Below are positions 19 to 58,307 of a DNA stretch of 64,000 nucleotides, piece after piece; the first letter of the stretch is position 1, and each line of letters opens with the position of its first letter. The notes beneath the pieces are model-generated. The model saw only the letters and a program-made list of their open reading frames with translations, was not told the origin of the DNA and made no database searches. The translations under genes were made by a program, and so were the position numbers. The DNA lies in contig CAMBDY010000007.1 of the NCBI GenBank assembly GCA_945865525.1, positions 30,165 through 94,164 on the forward strand. The letters run 5' to 3'. Origin of the DNA: Nitrospira lenta. GTDB lineage: Bacteria; Nitrospirota; Nitrospiria; Nitrospirales; Nitrospiraceae.

Positions 19-1848
19 ATGCCTATTCAGGAGCCAGGAAAAAATACCCAGCCCTTTAACGTTATCGTGGCAACCGACTGCGGGAGCACCACGACCAAAG
101 CTATTCTGATCGAGAAAGTCGGTAACGAATATCGGCAGACCTATCGTGGGGAAGCACCCACGACGGTGGAAGCGCCCTTCGAAGATGTGACGCGCGGGGT
201 ATTGAATGCAATTGCGGAAATTGAAGAGCTCTCCGGCCGGAAAATTCTTGACGGAGACAAGATTATCACGCCCTGCCACGATGCCAAGACTGGCGTGGAT
301 ATCTATATTTCCACCAGTAGCGCCGGCGGCGGGTTGCAGATGATGGTGACGGGGGTGGTTCAGAACATGACGGGGGAAAGCGCGCAACGCGCCGCGCTGG
401 GAGCTGGCGCGATTGTCATCGATGTGCTCGCCTCCAACGATGGCCGTCTGCCTCATGAAAAGATCGAACGAATCCGCACGATAAGACCAGACATGATTTT
501 GATGTCGGGTGGGACGGACGGCGGGGCGGTCACCCATGTGGTGGAGATGGCCGAATATATTTCCGCCGCAGAGCCTCGACCCCGCTTCGGGGCCACCTAC
601 AAGCTTCCCTTGATTTACGCAGGCAACAAAGACGCGCAGTCACAAGTACAGAAAATCCTGGGCGAGAAAGCGGCACTGGTGCTGGCTGACAATATACGCC
701 CTGTGCTGGAGCGTGAGAATCTCACGCCGGCGCGCGACAAGATTCACGACCTCTTTCTCGAACATGTCATGCAGCAAGCGCCTGGCTATAAGAAGCTGAT
801 TGAGATGACCGGTGCGCCGATCATGCCCACGCCAGCGGCGGTTGGGGTGATTATGGAAACGATTGCTAAGCGGGAGCATCTAAGTTTGATCGGGGTGGAT
901 ATCGGCGGTGCGACGACAGATGTGTTCTCGGTCTTCGAAGGCTTGTTCAATCGGACCGTTAGCGCGAACCTTGGTATGTCCTACAGTATTTCCAACGTGC
1001 TGGCGGAAGCGGGTCTTGCTAATATCATGCGCTGGGTGCCGTTCACGCTCGACGAACAGACCCTCCGCAACCGGATCAAGAACAAGATGATTCGGCCGAC
1101 GACGATCCCTCAGACATTGGACGAGCTGCAGATTGAACATGCGATTGCCCGTGAGGCGCTCCGGCTTGCTCTGATTCATCACAAGTCTCTTGCGACGGCG
1201 CTCAAGGGTATACAACAGGAACGCACGATCTCGGATGTGTTTGAGCAGCAGCAGTCTGGCAAGACCCTGATCGATATGCTTAAGCTTGATTTGATTGTGG
1301 GAAGTGGCGGGGTACTGTCCCATGCGCCGCGCCGCGTCCAATCGATGCTGATGATGGTGGATGCCTATGAGCCGCTCGCAGTGACACGGCTTTCGGTGGA
1401 CAGCATCTTTATGATGCCGCATTTGGGCGTGCTCTCGACGATCAATGAGCAGGCAGCCACCGATGTGTTCGTCCGCGATTGCATGGTCTATTTGGGGACT
1501 TGTGTCGCACCGATCGGGCAGGGCAAGGAAGGGGAACGCTGTGCAGACTATGCCATTACCTTGCAGGATGGGCGAGTGGACAAGGGGCAGCTCTTGTTTG
1601 GTGACCTGCGATTGGTGCCCTTGGCCAGCGATCAGAAGGCGTCAATTACGATCCAGCCGGCCAAACAGGTCAACCTCGGAGCTGGGGCTGGTGTCTCGGT
1701 TACACGCGAGGTACAAGGCGGCGTGGTAGGGCTTCTGCTCGATGGGCGAGGCAGGCCGCTACAGTTGCCGGTTGATCACGATGCCAGAGCGGCCATGCTG
1801 ACGAAATGGTTCAAAGCCGTCGGATTGTATCCAGAAAGTGATGTGTGA
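19..1848 (+). CDS. MutL/GlmL-type ASKHA ATPase (glutamate mutase L-like)
   Basis: 609 aa; VATDCGSTTTKAILIEK phosphate-binding motif, second GVDIGGATTDVFSV motif, resembles MutL family. Confidence 0.85.
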   Translation: MPIQEPGKNTQPFNVIVATDCGSTTTKAILIEKVGNEYRQTYRGEAPTTVEAPFEDVTRGVLNAIAEIEELSGRKILDGDKIITPCHDAKTGVDIYISTSSAGGGLQMMVTGVVQNMTGESAQRAALGAGAIVIDVLASNDGRLPHEKIERIRTIRPDMILMSGGTDGGAVTHVVEMAEYISAAEPRPRFGATYKLPLIYAGNKDAQSQVQKILGEKAALVLADNIRPVLERENLTPARDKIHDLFLEHVMQQAPGYKKLIEMTGAPIMPTPAAVGVIMETIAKREHLSLIGVDIGGATTDVFSVFEGLFNRTVSANLGMSYSISNVLAEAGLANIMRWVPFTLDEQTLRNRIKNKMIRPTTIPQTLDELQIEHAIAREALRLALIHHKSLATALKGIQQERTISDVFEQQQSGKTLIDMLKLDLIVGSGGVLSHAPRRVQSMLMMVDAYEPLAVTRLSVDSIFMMPHLGVLSTINEQAATDVFVRDCMVYLGTCVAPIGQGKEGERCADYAITLQDGRVDKGQLLFGDLRLVPLASDQKASITIQPAKQVNLGAGAGVSVTREVQGGVVGLLLDGRGRPLQLPVDHDARAAMLTKWFKAVGLYPESDV

Positions 1849-1915
1849 TGAGTGATGGGCGAGAGGGGGCCATGTGAAAACATACTTTTCCTACTCACCA
1901 TGCATCACTGATCAC
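1838..1915. repeat. Inverted heptad-repeat element (word GTGATGN)
   Basis: Left arm GTGATGT|GTGATGA|GTGATGG (1838-1858); facing arm TCACCAT|GCATCAC|TGATCAC (1895-1915). Confidence 0.75.
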
Positions 1916-1934
1916 GTATTACGGTATTAAGATT

Positions 1935-3063: not shown

Positions 3064-3098
3064 CGTGAAACGTGAGACATTAGACGTGAAACGTGACA
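3064..3098 (+). repeat. Tandem heptad array CGTGAAA-type (5 units)
   Basis: CGTGAAA|CGTGAGA|CATTAGA|CGTGAAA|CGTGACA. Confidence 0.8.
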
Positions 3099-5016: not shown

Positions 5017-5018
5017 GG

Positions 5019-5105
5019 CGAAATTGAAAATGGACAATAAGAAATTCCTTGAATCCAGAGCGTGTCATCTTATTTTGTATTTTGCATTGTGTATTTCTCA
5101 TTGCG
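5019..5105. repeat. Inverted heptad-repeat element (AT-rich word)
   Basis: Left CGAAATT|GAAAATG|GACAATA|AGAAATT (5019-5046); right TATTTTG|TATTTTG|CATTGTG|TATTTCT|CATTGCG (5071-5105). Confidence 0.75.
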
Positions 5106-5115
5106 AGGGTCTCCA

Positions 5116-6721: not shown

Positions 6722-6795
6722 ATCGCGTTTGTCTGGCTCATCTAGTTAGTCCCGTAGGCGCAAAGACCAAGCAGGCCAGATGGGCCAGATCGCGG
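6722..6795. repeat. Inverted nonamer-repeat element (word TCTGGCYCA)
   Basis: Left arm TCTGGCTCA|TCTAGTTAG; reverse complement of right arm TCTGGCCCA|TCTGGCCTG|CTTGGTCTT. Confidence 0.65.
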
Positions 6796-6823: not shown

Positions 6824-8092
6824 ATGGCGCTCCGATCAAGGAGCCCCATGACTATTACTAGCACTGCGAAAGATCCCAAACAGTATCCAGCTCTTCGCAA
6901 TCTACAATTCTCGCCGATCAAAGAAGGTGAGGAGCAGTTCATGGTCCTTTGGGACCCGACGGGCTTGAGCAAAGAAAAGCTCGTACTGCCGCTCAATTAC
7001 TTTTTTATCATTCAGCATTTCGACGGCGAGCATTCGCTGGCGGAAATCGGGGCGCTCTATCTGAAACGCTTCGGTGAATTTCTCGTGCCCAGCAAGATGG
7101 ATCAGTTGGTCATCGATCTGAATGAGAAATTATTCCTGGAGGGGCAGCGTGCCGAGGAGGCCAGGCGGCTAGCGCGGGAGGCCTATCGGCAGAGCCCGCT
7201 GCGTCGCGCGGCCCATGCGGGGCGGGGCTATGAAGCAGACAGTGCCAAGCTGAAGAAACAGATTGATGGATTCTTTACGTCAGAAGAAGGTCCGGATTTT
7301 AAGCCGTCAGAGAATGCGGGGAAGAAAATTAAAGGCCTTGTTGCCCCGACCTATGATTTAAAGCAAGCGGGGCCGATCTATGCCTGGGCCTATAAAGAAC
7401 TGCAAGAAGCGGAGCAACCGGACCTCTTCGTCATCATTGGGACTGCTTCTGCTGGATTGGACCATGTTTTTGCTGTGACGGATAAGGATTTTGAGACTCC
7501 CTTCGGGGTCGTGTCTGCTGACCTGCCAATCCTGAGTCGGCTTAAAGACAAGTTGCCAGAATTTTTCGAGGACGATCTCTGTCATCAGGCGGAGCAGGCG
7601 GTGGAGTTTCAACTTCCCTTTCTGCAGGACATTGTGGGGAAGAAGAAGCCTTTCACCATTGTCCCGATCTTGAGTGCCTTCTCCGCTGCGAGCCTGGGGG
7701 ACCCGACCGTGCGTCAAGCGGTCGAGCAGTTTCTGACCGGACTGCGAGAGGTTCTCATGCAATCAGGTCGGTCCTACTGTGTGATCGCAGCAGGAGAGTT
7801 GGCCCATTTGGGCATGAGATACGGAGACAAGGCGCCCCCGACGGACTTCTCCTTTCACCGCTGTATGCAGTTTGATCTGGAAATGTTGAAGCCGGTGGAA
7901 GAGCGGCAGCCGGAAGAGTTCGCCAACTACATCAGGAAAGAGCAGGACCAGCGCCGGATCTCGGGCTTCTCACCCATCTATTCCTTATTACGGTTGATTG
8001 ATGCGGAGAGTGGGCAAGTCCTGCGCTATGACCGTGGGATCACCGATCAATATAACTCGACTGTGACGTACGCTAGCATGGCGTTCTTCTGA
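6824..8092 (+). CDS. MEMO1-family / AmmeMemoRadiSam system protein B-like, degenerate metal site
   Basis: GLVAPTYDL, IIGTASAGLD, AEQAVEFQLPFLQ, LAHLGMRYGD align to MEMO motifs with His losses. Confidence 0.75.
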   Translation: MALRSRSPMTITSTAKDPKQYPALRNLQFSPIKEGEEQFMVLWDPTGLSKEKLVLPLNYFFIIQHFDGEHSLAEIGALYLKRFGEFLVPSKMDQLVIDLNEKLFLEGQRAEEARRLAREAYRQSPLRRAAHAGRGYEADSAKLKKQIDGFFTSEEGPDFKPSENAGKKIKGLVAPTYDLKQAGPIYAWAYKELQEAEQPDLFVIIGTASAGLDHVFAVTDKDFETPFGVVSADLPILSRLKDKLPEFFEDDLCHQAEQAVEFQLPFLQDIVGKKKPFTIVPILSAFSAASLGDPTVRQAVEQFLTGLREVLMQSGRSYCVIAAGELAHLGMRYGDKAPPTDFSFHRCMQFDLEMLKPVEERQPEEFANYIRKEQDQRRISGFSPIYSLLRLIDAESGQVLRYDRGITDQYNSTVTYASMAFF

Positions 8093-8093
8093 A

Positions 8094-8219
8094 AAGAGCG
8101 TACGGCTGATGGCCTATAGCTCATGGCGTAAGTCTTGGTCTTTCTGATTTCCTGTTCAATCCAGAGACATTTTCCCTCAGTTTGTGTCATCTGCTATAAG
8201 TTATCAGCAATCTGCTCTT
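8094..8219. repeat. Inverted heptad-repeat element (word NATRGCT) between convergent genes
   Basis: Left AAGAGCG|TACGGCT|GATGGCC|TATAGCT|CATGGCG (8094-8128); right TGTCATC|TGCTATA|AGTTATC|AGCAATC|TGCTCTT (8185-8219). Confidence 0.85.
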
Positions 8220-8222
8220 CGG

Positions 8223-8768
8223 CTACTCTTTGACCGTCATAATCATGGGGATCGGCTCTAAGGGATTATCGCAGTCGTCTCTGACTGCCGCAACGATCTT
8301 GTCCACCACATCCATGCCACGAAAGACCTCGCCAAACACTGTGTAGGTCCGGTCCAGTCCACTGTTGTCCGCGACGCTGATATAGAACTGCGAGCCGCTG
8401 TCGTTAAAGTCCCTCGTGCTGTTGCTCTCCCGTGGCACCTTGGCCATCGCGAGGGCGCCACGCTTATGAGGTCGGTCGCTCGTCTCGGGATTCAGCCAGT
8501 AGCCGGGGCTGCCGGATCCGTGCAGGGAGCGGTCCGAGTTTTTGCTCAAGGGATCGCCGCCTTGGATGATAAAGCCTGGGACGACGCGATGGAAGGTGGT
8601 GCCATTATAGAATTCCATCTTGACGAGCTTGATAAAGTTCTCGACATGGCGCGGCGCGTCATCGGGGTAGAAGCGAACTTTGATCTCACCGAAGGGCGTC
8701 GTGATGGTGACGCGGGGATCGATTTTTTGGAATTGCATCGTCATTGCAGGTAAATGTAGCAGGGGCAA
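8223..8768 (-). CDS. Cyclophilin-type peptidyl-prolyl cis-trans isomerase
   Basis: FHRVVPGFIIQGGDP, GSQFYISVADN, YTVFGEVFRGMDVVDKI. Confidence 0.93.
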   Translation of the reverse strand: MPLLHLPAMTMQFQKIDPRVTITTPFGEIKVRFYPDDAPRHVENFIKLVKMEFYNGTTFHRVVPGFIIQGGDPLSKNSDRSLHGSGSPGYWLNPETSDRPHKRGALAMAKVPRESNSTRDFNDSGSQFYISVADNSGLDRTYTVFGEVFRGMDVVDKIVAAVRDDCDNPLEPIPMIMTVKE

Positions 8769-14916: not shown

Positions 14917-14920
14917 CGAA

Positions 14921-14981
14921 GTGCTGAGTTCTTAGCAATTCGTTTCTATCGACTCAGTTCGCAGCACTCATGGCTCGGCAC
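14921..14981. repeat. Inverted heptad-repeat element (word GTGCTGA)
   Basis: Left GTGCTGA|GTTCTTA|GCAATTC; right TCAGTTC|GCAGCAC|TCATGGC|TCGGCAC (14954-14981). Confidence 0.65.
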
Positions 14982-14987
14982 TAGCCT

Positions 14988-39846: not shown

Positions 39847-39874
39847 AAGAGCGTATGGCTCATGGCTGATAGCT
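39847..39874 (+). repeat. Heptad-repeat half element, related to 8094
   Basis: AAGAGCG|TATGGCT|CATGGCT|GATAGCT. Confidence 0.75.
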
Positions 39875-40085
39875 GAAATCAAAACGCCCCGATTGACTTC
39901 GGACCCCCATGCTAGTGGCGACAGCGCTTTTCTTCGGACGAGATACGAATGACGGGCAAAGCGTTGGGCCATTATGCTGAAGGGCCAGTAATAACTCAAC
40001 TGTGACGCTGGTGTGGGTCTCAGTCCGCCGTTTCTTGACAGTCAATCAGAGGCGAGAGTAGGCTCGCTCCATTCCACACCACACA

Positions 40086-58293: not shown

Positions 58294-58307
58294 TTCACGT
58301 TTTACGA
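58294..58307 (-). repeat. Two heptads CGTAAAA|CGTGAAA (fragment of heptad family)
   Basis: Plus strand TTTCACG|TTTTACG, same word as 3064-3098. Confidence 0.45.

Follow-up and report, generated by a model that had tools for sequence, protein, structure and literature searches.

Facing heptanucleotide arms between Nitrospira genes as the probable ends of small S23p elements

Tandem arrays of heptanucleotides are found in several phyla, where they have until now stood as separate puzzles. For instance, the STRRs of cyanobacteria are intergenic tandem 7-mers with changing words, usually described as single direct arrays. A different body of work concerns the intervening sequences (IVSs) of 23S rRNA genes, such as that of Coxiella burnetii, in which an ORF for the IVS protein S23p (PF05635/TIGR02436) lies between pairable inverted ends with heptamers adjoining; some 30 years after IVSs were described, we know of no function for this protein. 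In Coxiella, GACAGAT heptamers stand directly before S23p, an observation that was not generalised (PMC4990558). In Geobacter metallireducens, the arms of site pairs of classes 1–3 each consist of four 8-mers or five 7-mers, and the pairs were read as IHF/HU sites (PMC2700814), while Beggiatoaceae harbor intergenic TAACTGA heptamers in two to six copies (PMC4679880). In the literature covered, which took in few subscription journals and no preprints, no paper made a general link between S23p and heptads.

Here we describe elements in a window of Nitrospira lenta DNA, the window being the whole 64,000-nt stretch analyzed (assembly GCA_945865525.1, contig CAMBDY010000007.1, positions 30,165 to 94,164). 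Like STRRs, they are intergenic tandem 7-mers with changing words, but their arms face each other, and an identity between the two is a candidate only. Facing arms and variable spacing they share with the Geobacter pairs. The Beggiatoaceae repeats, in contrast, have one word in direct orientation before start codons, with no S23p link reported (PMC4679880). Compared with rRNA IVSs, the Nitrospira elements lie between protein genes, occur in many copies, mostly lack an ORF and carry a word specific to an S23p subfamily; they are related to IVSs and work like them, but are not rRNA IVSs. All those of the window and the genus are intergenic, and only the S23p locus of Azospirillum lipoferum (L364) sits inside a 23S rRNA gene (Rfam, whole length), with facing heptad arms, as a classical IVS.

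Facing arms of period 7 and 9 in the window

The original prediction placed two facing 35-nt arms, each of five in-phase heptads, at 8094–8219, and the sequence confirms them. The element fills the entire gap between two convergent genes, one MEMO1-like (stop at 8092) and one for a peptidylprolyl isomerase (stop at 8223). Recurrence of the design was also claimed, and the examples at 1836–1923, 3064–3098, 5019–5105, 6722–6792 (period 9), 14920–14982 and 39847–39878 are all present as described; the array at 58294–58307 has two units only. The features are as follows, with the profile that recovers an arm in brackets.

1836..1858, plus strand: left arm, GTGATGN
1893..1923, minus strand: facing arm of family F2, word AGTGATG, S23p subfamily THKDLxVWKKAMDLA (F2 profile)
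3064..3098, plus strand: single arm, CGTGAAA, the word adjoining genes of S23p subfamily KPHKKLDAW
5021..5103, no strand: AT-rich facing pair, AATGCAA/AATACAA
6722..6757, minus strand: left arm of period 9, family F9, word AAACCAGAY, S23p subfamily LTRFEDLDCWKEARQ (F9 profile)
6763..6792, plus strand: facing arm of period 9
8094..8128, plus strand: left arm of family F1, five heptads AAGAGCG TACGGCT GATGGCC TATAGCT CATGGCG; F1 word AAGAGC-[NNATRGC]n, S23p subfamily MAFRFETLEIWQMAKEY (F1 profile)
8129..8184, no strand: ORF-free loop, partly common to the shorter loop of an orthologous element in G030 (L043/L174)
8185..8219, minus strand: right facing arm of family F1, five heptads AAGAGCA GATTGCT GATAACT TATAGCA GATGACA (F1 profile)
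14920..14938, plus strand: left arm, GTGCTGA
14955..14982, minus strand: facing arm of family F3, word AGTGCTG, S23p subfamily RRFEDLIAWQKARELT (F3 profile)
39847..39878, plus strand: F1 arm, AAGAGCG TATGGCT CATGGCT GATAGCT (F1 profile)
39938..39965, minus strand: facing arm of family F5, word CGTNNNN, S23p subfamily NFRDLEVWKLGK (F5 profile)

The F5 arm, which follows the F1 arm of 39847..39878 at a distance of 60 nt downstream, was missed on first reading. It leaves an F1 arm (plus strand) opposite an F5 arm (minus strand) across 39847–39965, a mixed pair that matches composite repeats of genome G005, where CGT heptads lie outside AAGAGC arms.

Periodicity was examined in 844 kb of the 1.80-Mb genome (39 contigs), a sample containing 111 kb of intergenic DNA, with gene calls from a hexamer model and both dinucleotide shuffles and length-matched coding DNA as controls. 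Arrays were scored on four units with at least 64% match. At period 7 the sample holds 23 intergenic arrays, against 0.9 ± 0.9 in shuffles and 1 in coding DNA, and at period 9 it holds 6 against 0; periods 8, 10, 11 and 12 gave one array each, at or near background. Period-7 enrichment over shuffles and coding DNA had been named as the test on which the observation should stand or fall, and it stood. The reading of one fixed intergenic design, in which arms of period 7 or 9 face each other and the words vary, is supported.

The further claim that the words are locus-specific, and in this unlike a REP or MITE family, did not hold: they form dispersed families, each belonging to one S23p (PF05635) subfamily. 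Families recur across loci and species, and AAGAGC-[NNATRGC]n is common to the elements at 8094 and 39847. The F1 word was found in all 32 genomes of the genus, where arm matches reach 131 in a single genome and a reversed control gives 0–1. Since many F1 copies have flanks and loops in common, and some are nested in one another, they count as dispersed copies.

These words are recovered in the window by profiles that were derived solely from arms beside S23p genes in other genomes, with thresholds set at about one false match per 111 kb. The F1 profile (threshold 7.9) scores 29.8 at 8105–8132, 15.4 at 8188–8215 and 27.1 at 39851; the others score 13.7 at 1896 for F2 (threshold 9.8), 16.0 at 14955 for F3 (5.2), 21.3 at 39938 for F5 (12.6) and 20.1 at 6722 for F9, of period 9 (9.2). 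In the window's genome, F1 gives 13 intergenic matches and none in the coding sample. The arm at 3064..3098 was left out of scoring for its gene-boundary position, and the AATGCAA word of the 5019–5105 pair has no partner among the S23p genes sampled. Unit number is five in 66 of 119 distinct F1 arms, four in 46 and more than five in 3. Other arms adjoining S23p ORFs mostly have four (69 of 108 at period 7), which is also the length of the detection window, and "five" is clear for F1 only.

Words and periods are specific to S23p subfamilies

Some F1 pairs lie ~480–540 nt apart with an ORF inside, and this ORF encodes S23p (PF05635/TIGR02436; E 5.8e-30, for the ORF at 1097–1456 of locus L222, and 2.2e-28). 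An S23p ORF inside the element is found in the full-length relatives of families F1–F12, and S23p genes are present in 28 of the 32 genus genomes. The window's own genome has no PF05635 gene, and the window copies contain no ORF. The genes of each S23p subfamily are flanked by facing arrays with a distinct word of their own, the arms directly preceding the S23p start codon.

Among 100 S23p ORFs of the phylum, 56% have two-sided arrays of period 7, 16% of period 8 and 6% of period 9, compared with ~1% for shuffles. At a slightly lower cut, 80 of the 100 are two-sided and 74 of those 80 are facing; mean arm similarity is 0.71 inverted versus 0.45 direct. In a non-redundant Nitrospirota set, from which proteins more than 70% identical had been removed, ~80% of 49 S23p genes are two-sided at period 7, 8 or 9, as opposed to 0–1 of 185 other ORFs. 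One-sided arrays are of no use as a control near window genes, whose flanks themselves carry such elements.

Word and period follow the protein. S23p proteins at least 60% identical have the same period in 98–100% of pairs and a word in common too; word similarity is 0.69–0.76 above 60% identity and at background, 0.50, below 50%. A Mantel test below 70% identity gives p at most 0.0005. Arms thus accompany S23p genes, their word and period are those of the subfamily, and the same words stand in the window. The agreement could also arise if ORF and arms were simply inherited as a unit, with no recognition between them.

The F1 S23p gene occurs in 8 of the 32 genomes, as a single copy in each and in at least 7 of them at the same junction, and has evolved under purifying selection (dN/dS 0.04–0.14). 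The median number of F1 arms is 90 in genomes that have the gene and 14 in those that do not (p 0.0003), although the carriers are partly related, so that the test is not fully independent, and most genomes compared are metagenome bins.

Turnover at fixed junctions

The junction preceding a thioesterase-like gene affords a direct view of how ORF-less arm pairs arise. It is empty in G029 and G030, where stop codon and following ATG abut; G026, G028 and G014 have an F1 element there with the S23p ORF intact, and in G005, G027, G015 and G016 the ORF of the F1 element is damaged. An F5 element with its ORF occupies the site in G025 and G021, F5 arms are kept around an internally deleted ORF in G019, G017, G020 and G003, and in other genomes the site holds a short element of period 9. 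The two empty sites revealed no target-site duplication at this junction, where divergence is high.

Elsewhere, F1, F6, F11 and F12 pairs alternate among species in the gyrA–gyrB gap, and exactly two heptads have been lost there in G027/G028. In the same gap of G008 (L378/L392), a TCAGCNN facing pair surrounds a ~300-nt stretch in the place of S23p. At the window junction at 5017–5115, a comparison of 45 species brings out nine different words or more; two-sided period-7 arrays are present in 28 of the 38 species whose orthologous gap is long enough, 27 of the 28 being facing, and in none of the shuffled gaps. This stop–start junction has been reoccupied repeatedly, for which target preference or its being the sole tolerated spot are candidate reasons. 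The window copies, having lost their ORF, are therefore best seen as passengers or remnants of S23p elements of the IVS type.

A proposed mechanism and its rivals

We consider it probable that the facing heptad and nonad arms are the ends of small selfish elements of the IVS type that encode S23p. A full-length element would consist of four to five copies of the word, the S23p ORF (PF05635) and four to five copies of the word's reverse complement; the window copies would have lost the ORF and been kept in intergenic gaps because insertions in genes were purged. The arms may serve as recognition sites for S23p, whose ring, a homopentamer in solved relatives, would bind one unit per subunit. Once bound, S23p might hold the ends close to each other or tag the hairpin RNA or single-stranded DNA, and a host enzyme would then do the copying. 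The working analogy is TRAP, the trp RNA-binding attenuation protein, an 11-mer ring that reads regularly spaced triplets, one per subunit; TRAP and S23p have no homology. The F1 S23p model is a four-helix bundle (pLDDT 95.9) that matches 2GSC (TM 0.92), 2RLD and Avd; 2RLD has five chains, and 2GSC, XCC0516, is a homopentamer (PMC4990558). In F1, the best-studied family, unit number stops at five, the 3 longer arms among 119 apart. The variable positions of 48 facing F1 pairs do not covary (identity 0.303 versus 0.357 with shuffled partners), which favors recognition of each arm's word and not of pairing. From the pentameric relatives, the five-unit F1 arms and this lack of covariation we infer one unit per subunit.

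It is unlikely, in our view, that hairpins came first, that is, that imperfect palindromes with heptads born of slippage were kept as RNA or DNA hairpins, for transcript ends or mRNA stability, and that S23p was a later passenger. The window elements do fold well as RNA (z −4.45, −3.28 and −2.50), the first value being that of the 8094–8219 element on the plus strand (−3.25 on the minus strand) and the second that of 1836–1923. Heptads are also gained and lost in place, as with the two missing from gyrA–gyrB in G027/G028, long expanded arrays exist in Pseudanabaena, and heptamer number varies among Coxiella strains (PMC4990558). However, the 14920–14982 pair folds no better than shuffles. Neither is the suggested transcript-end function favored: an intrinsic terminator (short G+C stem, then T run) has no match at any of five loci, and flanking genes are co-directional in 25 cases, convergent in 10 and divergent in 6, with no significant convergent excess. 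An Rfam scan of the whole window returned tRNAs only. The hairpin account is further at odds with the absence of covariation, the capped F1 unit number and the power of S23p subfamily to predict word and period; F1 orthologues suggest that arms keep the word while losing pairing. Still less likely is an autoregulatory operator, whereby S23p would bind heptads solely to control its own mRNA through a TRAP-type leader, and ORF-less pairs would be captured regulatory sites, themselves immobile. Arms directly before the S23p start codon suit this idea, as do pairs in the 5' leader of bioA-like genes of several species. Yet arms are just as present 3' of the ORF, facing each other; pairs lie between convergent genes, as at 8094, the 25/10/6 orientations show no leader preference; and words swap between species at one junction.

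We give very little weight to mobility of the REP type, driven by a REP-associated tyrosine (Y1) transposase (RAYT), or to a retroelement that depends on a reverse transcriptase resident in the genome. Small dispersed intergenic palindromes, and an S23p fold that is also that of Avd, the reverse-transcriptase partner of diversity-generating retroelements (DGRs), speak for it, but the F1-rich genomes G026, G027 and G028 (70, 131 and 103 arms) have no PF01797 or PF00078 match, and the anatomy is one of tandem heptads with no REP tetranucleotide or conserved REP hairpin. No Y1 transposase was found in G000, G026, G027 or G028, and a resident enzyme of either kind was rejected for its absence from the three element-rich genomes; mobility through one since lost or diverged is possible. 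An equally improbable reading, put forward for the Geobacter look-alikes, is that the pairs bind IHF/HU, a global regulator that bends DNA: the anatomy is the same, with opposite-strand pairs, variable spacing and four octamers or five heptamers (PMC2700814), but at least 10 unrelated words exist within one genus, tied to S23p subfamilies. We also rejected an origin by telomerase-like addition to the two ends of a break: arms that face each other would follow from it, but a constant AAGAGC heptad on the outside and the connection with S23p would not.

The arms are real and widespread, and their identity is largely explained; the link with S23p also accounts for a class of intergenic repeats that colonize the junctions of operons and in some cases end up within proteins. 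The link supplies S23p with candidate ligands, some ten protein–word pairs with natural specificity swaps, and subfamily-specific words make the role of S23p directly testable. Outside Nitrospira, plasmids searched at the protein level yielded S23p from cyanobacteria and from a small number of other sources; of 15 such loci, 13 have two-sided arrays of period 7 or 8, 11 of them facing. The cyanobacterial flanks carry facing heptanucleotide arrays such as GGAACAG, AGTCAGA and GGTGTAG, in support of the analogy with STRRs first drawn from the window. Tentatively, S23p elements may constitute a minimal selfish class found across bacteria, in which each arm presents five tandem words of 7, 8 or 9 nt for a pentameric ring to read, one for every subunit, the word being re-specified in each subfamily; rRNA IVSs, STRRs, the Geobacter pairs and many orphan heptamer arrays might then be members or relics.

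In cyanobacterial plasmid CRISPR-cas operons, arm-bearing S23p genes stand exactly at gene junctions, in the order cas6–S23p–cas4 (L353 and L362) or cas10/cmr2–S23p–cmr3 (L354). Heptad arms are also translated in frame inside conserved proteins, FdhA-like (L176, L169) and helicase-like (L164, L175), so that elements add peptide strings to proteins, among them YQPSAIGHQPFAL, SAISHQPSAIS and SRFTLHASRFTLH.

Other repeats share these gaps. A second, unrelated family of large palindromes, GGCTGCTGAAA...CGTTCTCG...CAACGTACCC...GGGTACGCCT...GAGCAGCC, fills the same gaps in many Nitrospira species (L072-L085, L099, L371, L379, L381). A third, REP-like family, GGGCAGCCTGGTC...CTCGTTCGACGCGCGCA...GACCAGGCTGCCC, lies 3' of the peptidylprolyl isomerase gene (L044, L048, L051, L055, L059), and at L052 its loop contains a nested pair of period 9.
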